From Clostridium sartagoforme AAU1 (GTDB taxonomy: Bacteria > Bacillota > Clostridia > Clostridiales > Clostridiaceae), in the NCBI RefSeq assembly GCF_000401215.1, contig NZ_ASRV01000034.1, positions 1 through 38,657 on the forward strand: a DNA stretch of 38,657 nt. The letters run 5' to 3'. How positions within the stretch are numbered: position 1 is the stretch's first letter; each line of letters starts with the position of its first letter. This document shows, in pieces, positions 687-7,254 of this stretch. The notes below the pieces were generated by a model. That model was not told the origin of the DNA. It was given only the letters and a program-made list of their open reading frames with translations, and searched no databases. The translations under genes were made by a program, and so were the position numbers.

Positions 687-1505
687 CTAAATTCCATTGC
701 TTTTAAGAAAGTCTTTAAGTAAATTCATGCACACTGTTTTTCTATAATCTGCTGAAACTCTCCCTCTAATAGGAACAATAGCCTTATCGTAAGCTGATAA
801 GTATTCTTCCTTTATATTTTTTACTTCTTCAATAGTTTTACCTATAAGCATTTCATCAATATCTGCTCTTCTTAATATAACATCACTAACCGCACCAAAA
901 GCTGTACTACAGTTATTTATTTTATTATTATTAATATCAAGAATTCCTGCAAAAGATACCCTAGAAATTGCTAATGCATTTCTTGGACCTACTTTTGTAA
1001 AGTAATAGTTATCAATTCCTGTCTTTTTCATAATAATTTCAACTAATATCTCATCAGATTGAAGGGCTGTTTTCTTTCTTCCTAAGAAAAATTCATTAAT
1101 AGGGATTATTCGCTCTCCTTTATTACTTGCAAGCTTTAACTTTGAGTCTGTAGCAACAAATATTAATGCACTATCGCCCTTTGGTGAACCATTACATATA
1201 TTTCCTCCAACAGTTCCAAAATTTCTTATTGCTGGTGCCGCAATTTGTGAAACTGCTTCTTTCAAAATTTTAGGCGTTAGATTACTTTCAATTATATCTG
1301 TAAAAGTACAAGCTGCTCCAATATAGATATATTCATCATCTTCTACAATTTTTTTTAGTTCAGGTATTTTATTAAGAAATAAATATGTTGCATCTTCTTT
1401 TGATTCAATCATTAAATCTGTACCACCACTATATGGAGTAACTTCTTCTCTTGCAAGTATATCTAAAGCATCTTTTAAGGAGCTTACATTATATCCGTTT
1501 ACCAT
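687..1505 (-). CDS. Molybdenum hydroxylase FAD-binding subunit (XDH/CO-dehydrogenase medium-subunit family)
   Basis: 272 residues, the usual length for the medium subunit of xanthine dehydrogenase-type enzymes. The FAD-binding signatures are visible: YSGGTDLMI near residues 25-33 and the flavin-loop motif TVGGNICNGSPKGD near 98-111. The C-terminal part matches the CO-dehydrogenase flavoprotein C-terminal domain in layout. In this family the subunit takes electrons from the two [2Fe-2S] clusters and passes them to NAD+ or another acceptor; the protein is cytoplasmic. The ATG at 1505 has an AGGAGGG site and overlaps the end of the iron-sulfur gene by 7 bases, so the two are translationally coupled. 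The substrate of the enzyme (purine, nicotinate or another heterocycle) cannot be told from this subunit. Confidence 0.9.
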   Translation of the reverse strand: MVNGYNVSSLKDALDILAREEVTPYSGGTDLMIESKEDATYLFLNKIPELKKIVEDDEYIYIGAACTFTDIIESNLTPKILKEAVSQIAAPAIRNFGTVGGNICNGSPKGDSALIFVATDSKLKLASNKGERIIPINEFFLGRKKTALQSDEILVEIIMKKTGIDNYYFTKVGPRNALAISRVSFAGILDINNNKINNCSTAFGAVSDVILRRADIDEMLIGKTIEEVKNIKEEYLSAYDKAIVPIRGRVSADYRKTVCMNLLKDFLKSNGI

Positions 1506-1966
1506 AATCCTTTTCCCTCCTTAGCTGCAATACCAATAGCATTAACTATAGCATTATAACCAGTACACCTACAAAGATTTCCTGATATTCCATCACGAAT
1601 TTCCTCTTCTGTTGGATTTGGATTCTTAGCTAATATACATTCTGATGCAAGTATCATACCTGGAATACAAAATCCACATTGTACTGCACTAACTGATGCA
1701 TATGCCTTATCTAAAACTTTATATCTCTCTGTTTCACTATACCCCTCAATAGTTGTTACTGTACTTCCATCTATACTTCCCATAGCTACCATACAACTAT
1801 TAGCTAATCTTCCATCAAGAATAACTGAGCAAGCTCCACATTCTCCTTCTTTACATCCACATTTTACCCCTGTAATACTTAAATCATTTCTAAGTACATC
1901 AAGTAAGCGTTCATTACCTTTTGCATTTGAAGTCACTTCTTTTCCATTAAGAATAAATTTTATCAT
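1499..1966 (-). CDS. Molybdenum hydroxylase [2Fe-2S] subunit
   Basis: 155 residues, standard for the small subunit of xanthine dehydrogenase/aldehyde oxidase enzymes. The plant-type cluster ligands are Cys38, Cys43 and Cys46 in CKEGECGAC plus Cys58. The second cluster has Cys97 and Cys100 in QCGFC and Cys132 and Cys134 in LCRCTGY. All eight ligands are present, so the subunit should hold two [2Fe-2S] clusters and relay electrons from the molybdenum centre to FAD. Its ATG overlaps the stop codon of the upstream large subunit by one base (TAATG), which supports a single operon with the order large, small, medium. Confidence 0.95.
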   Translation of the reverse strand: MIKFILNGKEVTSNAKGNERLLDVLRNDLSITGVKCGCKEGECGACSVILDGRLANSCMVAMGSIDGSTVTTIEGYSETERYKVLDKAYASVSAVQCGFCIPGMILASECILAKNPNPTEEEIRDGISGNLCRCTGYNAIVNAIGIAAKEGKGLW

Positions 1967-4080
1967 TATTTAAGCACCTCCTGTAAAACTTTCATAGTAT
2001 CTTCTGCTGTAAATGGAATCTTATTAACATCTGTATTAATAGCATTTTCAAGCGCTTGTATATATGCTGCTGCTGGACCAACAGTTGGAAGCTCACCAGC
2101 ACCTTTTGCTCCAAATGGACCTTCAATATATGGATTATTCATGACTTCTGTTATAAGATTTGGAACGTCTACTGCTGTTGGTATTATATAATCACTGAAG
2201 CTATTATTACGTATTCTACCTTCTGAATTGTATGATATATTTTCCATAGATGCATAACCAATTCCTTGTAAGAATCCGCCTTGCATTTGTCCTTGTATTA
2301 TATTCATATCAATAGGCACTCCAACATCATATACTCCCCAAGCTCCAAGTACTTTTTGAGTAGCAGTAAGTGTATCAACCTCTACTTCTATAACGTTTAC
2401 TCCCCAAGCATAATCTGGGTAAGCATCACCTCTGAATTTTTCAATACTAAATGGTATCAAGAAATCAGGATGAACATAGTGCTCTTCTATTAATTGTTTT
2501 TCTCCAGATTTCCATTCTTTCTTAAGTCTTTCCGCAGCACGTCTAAGCAATTCTCCAACTACCATCAAAGAACGGCTTGCTGCTGTTGGACCTGAATCTG
2601 GAACTTGATCAGTATCAGGATTTTCTACAATTACTCTTTCATTAGGAATTCCAAGAGTCTTTGCAACTATCTTGCTAAAGGTTGTTTTAATACCTTGTCC
2701 CATATCTGTATTAGCAGTTAATATTTCCACAGTATCATCTGAATTTTTTCTTAACTTAGCAACAGCTTTAATTAAATCTCTCTCTCCACTTCCAGTGAAA
2801 CCGCATCCATGGAAAAATAGAGACATTCCAATTCCCTTACGATATCTTCCTGTTTGATTTTTATATAACTTAGTTTTATTACGATAATCAGTAATAGTAT
2901 CTATTCTATCAATCATTTCTGGCAAAGGCACATGGAAATGATATTTGCCACTAGTTGAAGTTGCATCACCTTGCTTAACAATATGTTGTGCTTTGAATTC
3001 AAGTGGATCCTTTTCCAATTTCTTTGCAACATGATCCATCATCATTTCTACAGCAAAAAATGTTTGAGGAGCTCCAAATCCACGGAATGCACCATTAGGA
3101 ATAGTATTGGTTTTCACAGCTCGTCCAGCAACACATAAATTTTCTATATTATATACACCACTTGAGCATATTAATCCTCTTTGTAACACTACAGGAGTAA
3201 GTGTAGTATATGCGCCACTATTATACATAACATCGATATCCATTCCTGTAACTTTTCCATCTTTAACTGCAACTTTATAAGTAGATAAAGATGGATGTCT
3301 CTTAGAAGTAAATTCCATATCTTCTCTTCTATCAAATACAACTTTTACTGGTTTATTAACCTTTTTGGCTGCTACTGCTGTTTGACAGGCAAGTATTGAT
3401 GGGTAACCCTCTTTGCCTCCAAAGCCTCCACCAGTAACATCTTGAATTACTTGTATATCTTTTTCCTCATACCCCAAGGCCATAGCAATTGCTCTATAAA
3501 TATAATATGGACATTGCATTGAACCTCTAACAACCATACGTCCATTATTAGGGTAAGCAATCATCCCTTGGGTTTCAAGGTAAGCTTGTTCTTGATGACC
3601 CGTTTGAAAAGTTTCTATAAAAACGTTATCAGCTTCTTTTAACGCCTTTTGAATATCACCCTTTTCATAATTATAATTAAAGAATATAGTATCAGATTTT
3701 TGCATATCTAAAATAGGCTCTAATTCTTCATATACAACAATAATTTCATTTAGTATTCTTTCAACTTCTTTTAAATTTTCCCCTACAACCATTAAAATTG
3801 GATCGCCAATATACTCTACTGTGTCTTCTGCAAAAACTGGAGTATCATCAAGCACAATATGAACTTTATTTTTACCAGTTACATCATTTTTATCTACAAT
3901 GAAATACCCTTCTGGTAAATCTGGTTTAATGATATTAATTATACGAGCTTTGGCTTTTGACGATCTAAGTATCCTTCCATATAGCATATCTTCCATTTTA
4001 TGATCATCAACATACATCGCACGCCCACTTACTTTAGCATCATGATCTTTTTTCTTTATAGATTCACTTATATTTCCCAT
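1966..4080 (-). CDS. Molybdenum hydroxylase molybdopterin-binding catalytic subunit (xanthine dehydrogenase family)
   Basis: 704 residues, in the normal range for a separate large subunit. The N-terminal part has SGRAMYVDD, typical of the aldehyde oxidase/xanthine dehydrogenase a/b hammerhead domain. Cofactor-binding motifs are GGGFGGKE (217-224), GAFRGFGAPQ (330-339) and DMGQG; the expected catalytic Glu is Glu663 in GAKGAGELP. In this family the Mo-pterin cofactor hydroxylates purines or other N-heterocycles with water as oxygen donor. The gene follows the MobA-ModE fusion gene on the same strand after a 181-base gap that contains inverted repeats. Xanthine/purine hydroxylation is the most likely role, but nicotinate or aldehyde substrates are possible. 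Confidence 0.93.
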   Translation of the reverse strand: MGNISESIKKKDHDAKVSGRAMYVDDHKMEDMLYGRILRSSKAKARIINIIKPDLPEGYFIVDKNDVTGKNKVHIVLDDTPVFAEDTVEYIGDPILMVVGENLKEVERILNEIIVVYEELEPILDMQKSDTIFFNYNYEKGDIQKALKEADNVFIETFQTGHQEQAYLETQGMIAYPNNGRMVVRGSMQCPYYIYRAIAMALGYEEKDIQVIQDVTGGGFGGKEGYPSILACQTAVAAKKVNKPVKVVFDRREDMEFTSKRHPSLSTYKVAVKDGKVTGMDIDVMYNSGAYTTLTPVVLQRGLICSSGVYNIENLCVAGRAVKTNTIPNGAFRGFGAPQTFFAVEMMMDHVAKKLEKDPLEFKAQHIVKQGDATSTSGKYHFHVPLPEMIDRIDTITDYRNKTKLYKNQTGRYRKGIGMSLFFHGCGFTGSGERDLIKAVAKLRKNSDDTVEILTANTDMGQGIKTTFSKIVAKTLGIPNERVIVENPDTDQVPDSGPTAASRSLMVVGELLRRAAERLKKEWKSGEKQLIEEHYVHPDFLIPFSIEKFRGDAYPDYAWGVNVIEVEVDTLTATQKVLGAWGVYDVGVPIDMNIIQGQMQGGFLQGIGYASMENISYNSEGRIRNNSFSDYIIPTAVDVPNLITEVMNNPYIEGPFGAKGAGELPTVGPAAAYIQALENAINTDVNKIPFTAEDTMKVLQEVLK

Positions 4081-4157
4081 AATACCCTCCCATATATTTT
4101 AATTTTTTATTTAGTGATTACCCAATATAATACTATTAGTATTCAAGGTAAAGATAA

Positions 4158-4217
4158 AACCTCCAGCATTATAATAATTTAGTAATTATTTACTATCTTA
4201 ATTATAAAACAGAGGTT
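4158..4217 (-). promoter_or_regulatory. Nested inverted repeats ahead of the hydroxylase large-subunit gene
   Basis: The gap between the fusion regulator gene and the large subunit carries a perfect palindrome AATAATT-TAGT-AATTATT (4173-4190), about 95 bases upstream of the ATG at 4080. It lies within a wider pair AACCTC (4158-4163) and GAGGTT (4212-4217). This could be an operator for the ModE-type DNA-binding domain encoded immediately upstream, or an RNA fold controlling read-through; the sequence alone does not decide. Confidence 0.35.
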
Positions 4218-4261
4218 GTAAATCATCAAATTCTTTCTAAAAAGAACTTGCTTTATATAAT

Positions 4262-5185
4262 TTAAAATTTAAAACATTTATTAAATTCACTTTGTGCATA
4301 TTTGCGAACATTATCTTCAAATTTTTGATATTTTTCTAAAAATTCAATTCCTTCTTTTGTTAATAAAGTTTTTCCACCGTTTTTCCCACCATGCTGCCTT
4401 TGAACAACTGAATAACCTAGCTCTTCTTCTAATTTGTTTATCATATTCCACGCCTTACCATATGATAATGCAATATGATTACATGCACTTCTTACAGAAT
4501 GTTTTTCTTGAATTAATAATAAAAGTAACTTTGTCCTTGAATTAAAAAATAGTGTTTCATTTTCAATACTTATTCTAACAAAAGGATGTAATATATTTTG
4601 ATTATGTTCTTTTAAAAGTTCATCTAGTTTTTCAATATCATCTGTATTGCGAAATATTCCTTCATCTTCTACATTCATCCAATATCTTTCAACTCCAATA
4701 TTATTAATAGCACCTCTCAGCCCCATATCACCATTATATTTTAAAATTTTAGGTATTAAATCACATGCTATTAATAAAGGATGTCCAGATTTTCCGTTAT
4801 ATGATGGTGAAACCAGTTTTTCTTCTAATTCTATCATTTTTTGAATAGTTTTTGGAGTAAACATAGGAATATTACCTGGGCTAAAAATTACCTGTTCACA
4901 CTTATCTTGTAAAAAACTTAAACCTATTTTTACAGAATCAAGCATTTCTGAGCCTTCATAATTTTCATTTTTTAAAAATATAACTCCATAATCAGCTAAG
5001 TCATGCTCGATCTTTTCTGATTCATGTCCTGTAACTACTACAATTGGTGAGATTCCAACTTGTTGAAATGTTAACACGACCCTCTTTATTACAGTAATAG
5101 AGCCTATCTTTAATAATGGCTTTTCTGATATTCTCTTTGCTGCAACTATTACTCCACCTGTAGTTTTCTTTATTTCTTTCCTCAT
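4262..5185 (-). CDS. MobA/MocA-like nucleotidyltransferase domain fused to a ModE-type winged-helix domain
   Basis: 307 residues from the ATG at 5185, chosen because AGGGG lies 7 bases upstream; an upstream in-frame TTG at 5206 is less likely. The N-terminal two thirds resemble CTP:molybdopterin cytidylyltransferases, with VIVAAK..KPLLKIG, VVVTGHES and YNGKSGHPLLI. The C-terminal ~100 residues match the ModE N-terminal DNA-binding domain (SYGKAWNMINKLEEELGY and GGKNGGKTLLT). Two catalytic signatures look damaged. The AAGxSxRMG nucleotide-binding loop is shortened to AAKRISEKP, and the PxDxP metal-binding Asp is replaced in SPGNIPMF. I infer a cofactor- or molybdenum-responsive regulator that may no longer transfer nucleotides. 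It heads the hydroxylase operon. Confidence 0.85.
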   Translation of the reverse strand: MRKEIKKTTGGVIVAAKRISEKPLLKIGSITVIKRVVLTFQQVGISPIVVVTGHESEKIEHDLADYGVIFLKNENYEGSEMLDSVKIGLSFLQDKCEQVIFSPGNIPMFTPKTIQKMIELEEKLVSPSYNGKSGHPLLIACDLIPKILKYNGDMGLRGAINNIGVERYWMNVEDEGIFRNTDDIEKLDELLKEHNQNILHPFVRISIENETLFFNSRTKLLLLLIQEKHSVRSACNHIALSYGKAWNMINKLEEELGYSVVQRQHGGKNGGKTLLTKEGIEFLEKYQKFEDNVRKYAQSEFNKCFKF

Positions 5186-5215
5186 ACCTATACCCCTATT
5201 ATTCAATTAACAATT

Positions 5216-5261
5216 CGTAATTCACAGTTCACAGTTTAGGATGAAACTACTGTGTAGTTTC
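5216..5261. repeat. Candidate dispersed intergenic repeat with hairpin
   Basis: Upstream of the fusion regulator gene the sequence has degenerate AATTCACAGTTCACAG-type repeats followed by a perfect hairpin GAAACTAC-TGT-GTAGTTTC (5243-5261). Short units of this type are familiar from clostridial intergenic regions, but only this copy is in the window, so the repeat status rests on general knowledge. Confidence 0.3.
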
Positions 5262-5446
5262 TAAGACTGATATAATAATTTCTTCATTCTTTCATTTTCT
5301 CATCATTAATTTTGTTTTGAAAAATATTACAGCTTCTATATACTAATTTTATATATCACCACAGTAATTTTCAAGAGATTTATATAATTCTTCGTTTTTA
5401 GGTATTTTTATATACACTGTTTATTTTTATTTTAAATATGTTTTTA

Positions 5447-6367
5447 TTATTTTAGACGTTTATTTTCGTATTTTTTTAATAATCGTATATAATGATTAGC
5501 TTCTCTTAATACATGGTCAGCTAAAAGCGGTAATATTATTGATTTTATCTTACATTCTTCTATTCCTTCAACACCAGCTTCCTTGAAATCTCTTAATTTC
5601 TTTGTCTCCTTCAAAGTATTTTCTGTTAAATCTAATATACTAGATTCATTCATATGCTTTGCTTCTTCAATTAAATCATTATATATCTTTACAAAATTAT
5701 TTGATGAGTTTATTAAATTGCCTTCTGATGGATCAAGTAATCCTCTAATAAATAATGCATGCTCCATCATAATATGATTCCAAAATAACTGAGTTTCTTT
5801 TATATTTTTTTCCTTAATGTCTTCATTATTCTCAATTGAATATATATATGAACGATATAATTTTGCTTCATGTATTAAATGTTCAACAAATGTAGGATAG
5901 TTTGAGGAGAAAAGCATACAACTTAGTATCTCATCTAAAATCCTGCTTTTAAAATCTATAAAATCATCTAGTAATTTTATAACTCTACTATTAAATTTTC
6001 TTATGTTATTTATTGTTCTTTCATTTATTTCATTATTTTTAGATTTTATCTTTGACTGCATATCAGTTATTTTTGGGTTTATTTCTATACCTGTATAATA
6101 TTGTGTTTTATTTTCAGCATTTAATGTATATTCAGTATAAAGTTCTTTGGATTCTAATATATCTTCTTTAACTATCCCTTTGCTTAATTTAATTATATCT
6201 ATCAGATATTTTTCAAATTGTACTTTATATTCATCTGCTTCTTTTGAAAGTTTAGTATTCTTTTGTGGAAATCCTGCTTCTAAAAAAATAGCATGATCCC
6301 TCATAATCTTTGTGTAAAATAAATGTAGTTCTAGAGATAAATCAACATATTTTTCACGACTTAACAT
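5447..6367 (-). CDS. DUF2935 family protein (ferritin-like helical repeats)
   Basis: 306 residues with two related helical halves. The first begins LELHLFYTKIMRDHAIFLEAGF (near residues 12-33) and the second has ETQLFWNHIMMEHALFIRGLLDP, each carrying the His/Glu pattern FW/FY..IM.(D/E)HA characteristic of DUF2935. The fold is described as ferritin-like, with His and Glu residues that could bind metal; no activity is established. The gene is on its own between a region of repeats and the DDAH-like gene, with an ATG behind a weak ribosome site (GGAGTGAT). I recognise the family but not a specific function. Confidence 0.85.
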   Translation of the reverse strand: MLSREKYVDLSLELHLFYTKIMRDHAIFLEAGFPQKNTKLSKEADEYKVQFEKYLIDIIKLSKGIVKEDILESKELYTEYTLNAENKTQYYTGIEINPKITDMQSKIKSKNNEINERTINNIRKFNSRVIKLLDDFIDFKSRILDEILSCMLFSSNYPTFVEHLIHEAKLYRSYIYSIENNEDIKEKNIKETQLFWNHIMMEHALFIRGLLDPSEGNLINSSNNFVKIYNDLIEEAKHMNESSILDLTENTLKETKKLRDFKEAGVEGIEECKIKSIILPLLADHVLREANHYIRLLKKYENKRLK

Positions 6368-6440
6368 ATAATCACTCCATAAAATTTTATTATATTATAT
6401 TCATGAAATATGTTTTTGTTAATATAAATAATACTTTATA

Positions 6441-7254
6441 TTACTCTCTCAAGGTAAACATACATGAGCATCCTAAACTTCCTTTTGCTTTTATTATTTC
6501 ACCATAATCTATAAATTCTACTTCATATCCTTCTTTTTTTAAATATTCAGTAACATTTCTATTACTGCTTAATATCTTTTTATTACCTAAATATATATAA
6601 TTAGTTCCTAATTCATCTGCATCTTTCTTTGATATTTCGTATAAGTTTTTATATATTTTTCTATTACCTTTTATCATAAATATAAGGTGATATAACTGCA
6701 CTTCCCTTATCTAAAATATTAAATACACAATCTAAATGTATTTTACTCGTATCAAAGTATATAGGAATTACTTTATATTTGAAATTCATATTTATCAATA
6801 CTTCTTGAAGTTCATTTGCAGCTTCTATTGTTGTTCTGTCACTTATTCCTACGAAAATAACATTATCATATTTAATTATATCCCCACCTTCCATAATATT
6901 ACTCATTTCATAATGCTTAATGTTATTTTCTTTCACAAAAGATTTAAAAGAATCCGTTTCAATTTTCCTGTCATTTTCTTTCATATTACTTATAAATAAT
7001 ACATCATTTATTACAAATCCAATATCTTGGGTAAACACTTGTTGAGTCGCATTTTTATTAATATCAATAAAATATAAGCTTATATTATTTTTGCTTAATG
7101 TATTTATAAATTTATTATATTGGCTATAAAGTAAATCATAATTTATTTTGTTATAATACTCACTGCTTTTATTATTTATTTTAAAATTTACTGGATAGCA
7201 AATTATGCATGATTTTAAAGTCCCATATTGGCTTACATTATATATTTTCATCAA
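6441..7254 (-). pseudogene. DDAH/arginine deiminase-superfamily amidinohydrolase, frameshifted
   Basis: The first frame (7254-6664) begins MMKIYNVSQYGTLKSCIICYP and contains MEGGD, GISDRTT and IHLDCVFNIL. These match the substrate-binding Asp/Glu and catalytic His regions of dimethylarginine dimethylaminohydrolase and amidinotransferases. It stops after YIYDKR. The second frame (to 6441) continues NRKIYKNLYEISKKDADEL and ends GSLGCSC, where the nucleophilic Cys of the family is expected. Removing one T from the T4 run 6669-6672 joins them into a 270-residue protein of normal length. As sequenced, the product lacks the nucleophile. Likely substrates are arginine or methylated/guanidino compounds. 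The lesion could be real or a base-calling error. Confidence 0.8.

Follow-up and report, generated by a model that had tools for sequence, protein, structure and literature searches.

A degenerate MocA-like domain fused to a ModE-type winged helix beside a Clostridium molybdenum hydroxylase operon: candidate sensor of molybdenum-cofactor supply

In the 38,657-nucleotide stretch of Clostridium sartagoforme AAU1 analysed here (contig NZ_ASRV01000034.1; hereafter the window), a gene on the minus strand (4262..5185; start ATG at 5185, stop codon ending at 4262) encodes a 307 AA protein in which domain matches and an AlphaFold2 model revealed a MobA/MocA-like pseudoenzyme followed by a ModE-type winged helix. 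Downstream and on the same strand are the three subunit genes of a molybdenum hydroxylase (xdh), encoding the large subunit of 704 AA (1966..4080; PF02738, PF20256, PF01315), the [2Fe-2S] subunit of 155 AA (1499..1966; PF01799, PF00111) and the FAD subunit of 272 AA (687..1505; PF00941, PF03450). A response-regulator-like reading frame in two pieces occupies positions 2-432, at the contig end. The first-pass annotation had placed the fusion gene at the head of the hydroxylase operon, and it does lie directly upstream, but a conserved promoter-like site and an inverted repeat lie between the two, before xdh, so the fusion gene is the operon's upstream neighbour and not simply its first gene.

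The N-terminal domain (residues 9-197; 4595..5161, minus strand) was assigned from PF12804 (MobA-like), which covers residues 21-161 (E 3.8e-21 for the whole protein), and from Foldseek, for which the best matches of the modelled domain were chains of the MocA-like structure 3d5n (TM-score by target 0.80-0.86), with E. coli MobA (1e5k) at 0.76. The AlphaFold2 model was built with 50 relatives (pLDDT 91.1, pTM 0.86) and superseded an earlier run with 14 sequences (pLDDT 71.4). Two further profiles matched below their cut-offs, TIGR03310 (MocA) with 90 bits against 186.45, and NF045665 (DVU_1551 family NTP transferase) with 147.9 bits against 315 and over profile positions 15-195 of 359 only. 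The C-terminal domain (residues 205-305; 4271..4573, minus strand) is a winged helix-turn-helix of the ModE type. It was matched at residues 220-302 by TIGR00637 (ModE_repress; 62.9 bits, E 2.3e-17, the cut-off of 98.5 bits not being reached), and a family profile from alignment A4 found the ModE structures 2ijl and 1b9m (E 8.4e-14 for the latter). A Pfam scan of the 307 residues at E-values up to 1 found no MOP/TOBE molybdate-binding domain. A cytidylyltransferase-type fold joined to a ModE-type DNA-binding domain, and differing from known ModE proteins in its sensing part, was what the first-pass annotation had proposed, and the profiles and the model bear this out, the ModE match at a score below cut-off.

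The same annotation had read the N-terminal domain as catalytically dead from two changes, both of which we found in alignments with relatives and MocAs. The nucleotide-binding loop AAGxSxRMG is shortened to AAKRISEKP, in a degenerate stretch AAKRISEKPL at residues 15-24 (5114..5143, minus strand), and the metal-binding Asp of PxDxP is replaced by Asn105 (4871..4873, minus strand; SPGNIPMF). The GHP motif (residues 134-136; 4778..4786, minus strand) is retained and is invariant in alignments A1 and A4 (A4 without L091-L097). In an alignment that included MocAs, that of E. coli among them, we scored five residues that we take to be catalytic, a choice guided by the MocA sequences and by what is known of the fold: the loop Gly, the loop Arg, the following Lys, the PxDxP Asp and the second Asp of a DxD motif. 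The window protein has one of the five, with loop Gly, Arg, Lys and metal Asp all missing together. Sequencing error, which the annotation had considered, is an unlikely source of the altered loop, since the shorter loop leaves the reading frame intact and relatives, too, differ in loop length (L003/L033, L004/L034, L014).

Throughout the Clostridium clade the metal Asp is replaced by Asn or Ser (17 of 17 proteins, including that of the window). When N-domain columns conserved in at least 80% of 15 intact proteins were followed into 22 proteins of the Clostridium set, 38 were retained and 29 were not, with the loop Ser, the Arg, the following Lys and the metal Asp among those lost and GHP, R35, G152, G155, G158, A159, D174 and G176 among those retained. 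The GxxGxxGA motif is kept in the Clostridium clade, and the DxD motif is eroded, D180 being present in 59% and D182 in 77% of the 22 proteins. Of 153 pairs, 86 had a dS below 1.5, and in these dN/dS of the N-domain ranged from 0.10 to 0.37, which indicates purifying selection and argues that the domain is not decaying. For this protein, the sequence evidence as a whole gives good support to both a loss of catalysis and a role in regulation.

For a broader survey, 80 loci were retained from 103 relatives, of which 62 encode whole fusions; with the window, 63 fusions were compared, and the excluded loci were 12 longer proteins (L101-L112), three stand-alone proteins (L085, L090, L100), two cut ones (L089, L098) and a broken one (L099). 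Every catalytic motif is present in 11 of the 63, whereas the other 52 are degenerate, with three or fewer of the five residues. Nine intact fusions score five, and L062 and L064 score four because the chosen start excludes a loop Gly that is present upstream. The metal Asp is replaced in 35 of the 63 fusions and the remaining 17 degenerate ones all lack the loop Arg; of the 52 degenerate fusions, 49 are without this Arg, 48 without the Lys and 30 without the second DxD Asp. GHP is present in 56 of the 63 fusions and 45 of the 52 degenerate ones, a retention that was partly selected for, as the fusion search used patterns containing the HP and TG motifs of alignment A1. The most degenerate fusions, L092-L097, have lost both the loop motif and GHP and share a set of neighbours, an amidohydrolase gene and others, read as purine genes. 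Relatives with full motifs, which the first-pass annotation had named as evidence against its reading, do exist, but none of the 11 belongs to the Clostridium clade and the eight that were aligned are about 35-42% identical to the window protein; the conserved loss holds within that clade, while elsewhere some fusions are intact. Most intact fusions adjoin genes of Moco-synthesis or molybdate-uptake type. Another cofactor-enzyme fusion was seen in L016 and L017, where an intact MocA domain precedes a long C-terminal region resembling an HD domain.

A MocA profile was then run over 44 fusion genomes (those of L033-L049, L061 and L070 not included) and the motifs of the matches were read. A second MocA was found in 27 of the 33 genomes with a degenerate fusion versus none of the 11 whose fusion is intact (Fisher p 1.6e-6), although these genomes are related, giving at most four independent pairs on the tree and one on well-supported branches, and several are metagenome-assembled and possibly incomplete. 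Other profile matches in the intact-fusion genomes were partial and reached at most 55 bits; three of the 27 separate MocAs were weak (G210, 94 bits; G226, 65; G230, 56), and the profile found no other MocA in six of the 33 degenerate-fusion genomes. A phylogenetically controlled test of this association was set aside, the independent pairs being too few. Repeated loss of catalysis was likewise rejected as a firm result, parsimony giving four changes yet a single clade of intact fusions not being rejected (AU p 0.22). The window's own genome encodes an intact MocA on contig C69, adjoining an ssnA-like gene.

Turning to the DNA before xdh, a 24-bp inverted repeat, CAAGTTCTTTTNANAAAGAATTTG (4227..4250; minus strand CAAGTTCTTTTTAGAAAGAATTTG), overlaps the -35 box of the hydroxylase operon and is a likely operator, judging from its conservation in related loci and a scan of the genus. 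Its half-site is CAARTWCTT and its layout 9-N6-9, as in ModE boxes. The predicted xdh promoter is TTGATG-17-TATAAT (4201..4229, minus strand), the first hexamer being overlapped by the repeat. A promoter scan of 3900-5600 returned 15 promoter-like sites against 11.6 expected, so the promoter assignment rests on conservation and not on the scan. Where a fusion gene precedes the repeat, an exact TATAAT lies 20 nt behind it at 21 of 24 sites; the same holds for one of six sites without a fusion upstream, the other five having TATACT (two), TGTACT (one), TATAAT at 21 nt (one) or none (one).

In the genome of 3.98 Mb, CAARTWCTT-N6-AAGWAYTTG is matched exactly by the window repeat and nowhere else; with up to three mismatches the pattern was found at 120 places versus 65 for a control pattern, and within the window once, against 0.97 expected by chance. 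With at most one mismatch it occurred 22 times in 25 related loci and in none of 10 block shuffles, and the genus scan gave 16 sites in 13 of 68 genomes with none for the control pattern, bearing in mind that the consensus was derived from loci in which it was later counted and that the genus scan overlaps those loci. Sites were present in 12 of 14 fusion genomes versus one of 54 others. That single genome, G056, holds two of the 16 sites and carries a deletion remnant, in which the region upstream of the fusion gene is joined to roughly the last 21 codons of the fusion. At L232 (10300-10900) the fusion gene is deleted, with the upstream region and the final codons left and the xdh operator still in place. 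The fusion genomes in which the scan found no site, G004 and G011, both have divergent fusions, and divergent loci related to theirs carry CAAATACTT variants. The repeat was not found at the L042 locus, and no shared repeats were found in the intact-fusion loci.

Adjoining the repeat, a long hairpin is predicted (4153..4217, minus strand; folding z -3.88 in the window), of which the 5' arm overlaps the -10 region and the 3' arm is a former Shine-Dalgarno sequence. Comparison with L033, where mocA is still whole, identifies 4126..4165 (minus strand) as a relic of the Shine-Dalgarno sequence and first codons of that gene, which has apparently been lost from the xdh operon of the window. Among loci of the Clostridium clade in which the fusion gene immediately precedes its targets, most have the hairpin, with the surroundings of the -10 box paired to the Shine-Dalgarno sequence that serves the first target gene. 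Folding z was -2.8 to -6.9 in 15 of 17 loci folded (exceptions L035 and L038), and the Shine-Dalgarno sequence was paired with the promoter-side arm in 12 of the 16 loci with the fusion directly upstream (the window and L033-L050, minus L035, L038 and L042). L050 forms a different hairpin. L035, in which no fusion gene precedes xdh, lacks the hairpin; in L232, an operon without a fusion, four of five Shine-Dalgarno bases are still paired and overall folding is weak. We rejected the hairpin as a general feature, as it is confined to the Clostridium clade and was found at that position in none of seven deeper loci. Because transcription from the promoter is expected to start after the 5' arm, both arms would be present in read-through transcripts only, which suggests that the arrangement insulates against transcription running on from the regulator gene.

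Outside the Clostridium clade, many fusions adjoin MoaA, MoaC, XdhC and moeA-like genes and ABC transporters. Genes were named by sequence cluster, with a single representative checked for each of MoaA, MoaC, XdhC and moeA-like; ModA, ModB and ModC are a reading of general transporter families. Within the genus, MoCoBD_2 hydroxylases are encoded in 14 of 14 fusion genomes versus 25 of 54 others. No other ModE-domain match above 31.4 bits was found in any of the 25 fusion genomes tested, one of which (G067) has two fusions; the fusion genomes G081, G093 and G094 of the family also have an HTH-only relative. Histidine-phosphatase plus HD-domain proteins adjoin the fusion in L055, L059, L062, L064 and L086 (checked for L059), and in L079 and L087 a MocA-like domain is C-terminal to a histidine-phosphatase within one protein.

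The E. coli ModE site also consists of two 9-bp half-sites around N6, ATCGNTATATA-N6-TATATANCGAT (PMC545781). Boxes resembling it occur in five of 48 other loci, all of the sister clade (L069, L073, L077, L081, L087); in this degenerate clade (L069-L091) they are close to CGTTATATT-N6-AATATAACG and precede modA- or moeA-type genes. With up to three mismatches there were six matches in the 48 loci versus 0-2 per shuffle, and looser scans were weak (14 versus 1-8 with four mismatches, 51 versus 23-43 with five). The 9-N6-9 layout, common to both, favours the view that the Clostridium repeat is a ModE-type site that has diverged. Putative operators of ModE geometry lie at molybdenum genes both at xdh, as the repeat, and in the five sister-clade loci, as boxes.

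Starting from the architecture, the conserved loss, the selection on the N-domain and the conservation and placement of the repeat, all established at the level of sequence, we hold with moderate confidence that the fusion is a transcription factor whose pseudoenzyme sensor controls xdh by molybdenum-cofactor supply. The ModE-type winged helix, presumably dimeric, would bind the inverted repeat over the xdh -35 box. The N-domain would have given up cytidylyl transfer, with the remaining half of the MocA pocket largely preserved, and would most likely bind a molybdopterin-type ligand, whether Mo-MPT, MPT or MCD. The C-terminal part of MobA is described in PMC9103625 as harbouring a possible MPT site; unchanged MPT binding is less likely here, as the DxD motif in that part is partly eroded. 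Ligand binding would alter DNA affinity, with control of either sign, so that the hydroxylase genes would be expressed according to cofactor supply. The ancestor would have been a bifunctional MocA-ModE protein, a type still present in other Clostridia. A sensor controlling xdh had been suggested by the first-pass annotation, and the conserved loss, the purifying selection, the likely operator and the lack of a molybdate-binding domain in the Pfam scan favour it; the cofactor or its nucleotide is a candidate ligand.

Somewhat unlikely, though the best of the alternatives, is the same regulator answering to a different signal, its N-domain binding molybdate or tungstate, CTP or a purine-type metabolite, or docking to a protein such as MocA, XdhC or the apo-hydroxylase. 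Loss of the nucleotide loop, together with partial loss of the DxD motif, would fit such a change of signal, as would the sites in G009 and G019, which precede genes not known to need molybdenum (an HgdD/BcrA-type pair and a solute-binding transporter), and the amidohydrolase and permease genes, read as purine genes, at several loci. However, the GHP and GxxGxxGA columns are conserved in the Clostridium set, and in the various clades the fusions adjoin molybdenum hydroxylases, MoaA, MoaC, XdhC, moeA-like genes and presumed ModABC transporters. At L231 an operator-like repeat (4320-4343) lies before an HgdD/BcrA-type pair (4396-6333), both downstream of hypD and a hypE-like AIRS gene, with the genome's fusion on another contig.

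We regard it as improbable that the inverted repeat is an RNA feature, either a terminator of the fusion gene or a leader hairpin, and not a DNA operator, even though it stands right behind the fusion stop codon in most loci and T-rich stretches follow the stem in L049-L052. In C. beijerinckii (L035), where the fusion gene is found downstream of xdh, the repeat still precedes xdh, as it does in L234, where the fusion is likewise elsewhere, and in L233, a second xdh operon with no fusion adjoining. The repeat overlaps the promoter-like site at a fixed spacing, and L061 and L056 carry changes that break a stem pair. An Rfam search of 3500-6700 gave two matches, both far under the gathering score, and no terminator-like site was found in 3900-5600 of the window. 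Least credible of all, and very improbable, is a bifunctional enzyme-regulator still making the dinucleotide through an altered active site, for although the 11 fusions with all motifs are the only MocA found in their genomes, the loop Gly and Arg, the Lys and the metal Asp are all gone from the window protein, whose genome has an intact MocA on another contig.

Extending the cofactor-sensor reading to the family is more tentative, and we offer it as possible and short of probable. After a separate MocA had become available, bifunctional MocA-ModE proteins may have given up catalysis, perhaps more than once, and become a family of protein sensors for the cofactor itself, pseudoenzymes that repress or activate according to its supply. 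In one Clostridium clade, the hairpin from the -10 region to the Shine-Dalgarno sequence would silence transcripts that read through from the regulator gene, leaving those begun at the controlled promoter as the only ones to be translated.

Compared with MocA (E. coli MocA, TIGR03310, and 3d5n as the nearest solved fold), the window protein shares the fold and much of the conserved pocket but has no nucleotide loop, Lys or metal Asp, and a DNA-binding domain is attached. Trigger enzymes such as BirA and NadR combine a cofactor enzyme and a DNA-binding domain in one protein; the 11 intact fusions would be comparable to these, whereas the window protein is without the catalytic residues. With ModE of the E. 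coli type (TIGR00637 plus MOP/TOBE) it has the winged-helix domain in common, and it differs in its lack of a molybdate domain, its MocA-like N-terminus, its half-site CAARTWCTT and its sub-cut-off TIGR00637 score. HTH-only ModE proteins (PDB 2ijl; those of Desulfovibrio described in PMC545781) likewise have the ModE DNA-binding domain without molybdate domains but, unlike the window protein, carry no fused sensor domain. A MobA-ModE fusion is not described in the literature that we found, the subscription literature lying mostly beyond the reach of the search, nor in the accessible parts of PMC5640608, PMC7759655 and PMC13197769.

If the cofactor-sensor reading is true, a protein sensor would read the finished or near-finished molybdenum cofactor, whereas known ModE reads molybdate. 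The intact and degenerate fusions would then be living intermediates for studying the step from enzyme to sensor. The repeat is a candidate operator for molybdenum hydroxylase genes of Clostridium, including those of acetogens such as C. ljungdahlii (L044), and, where a genome showed no further ModE-domain protein, the fusion is a candidate molybdenum regulator.
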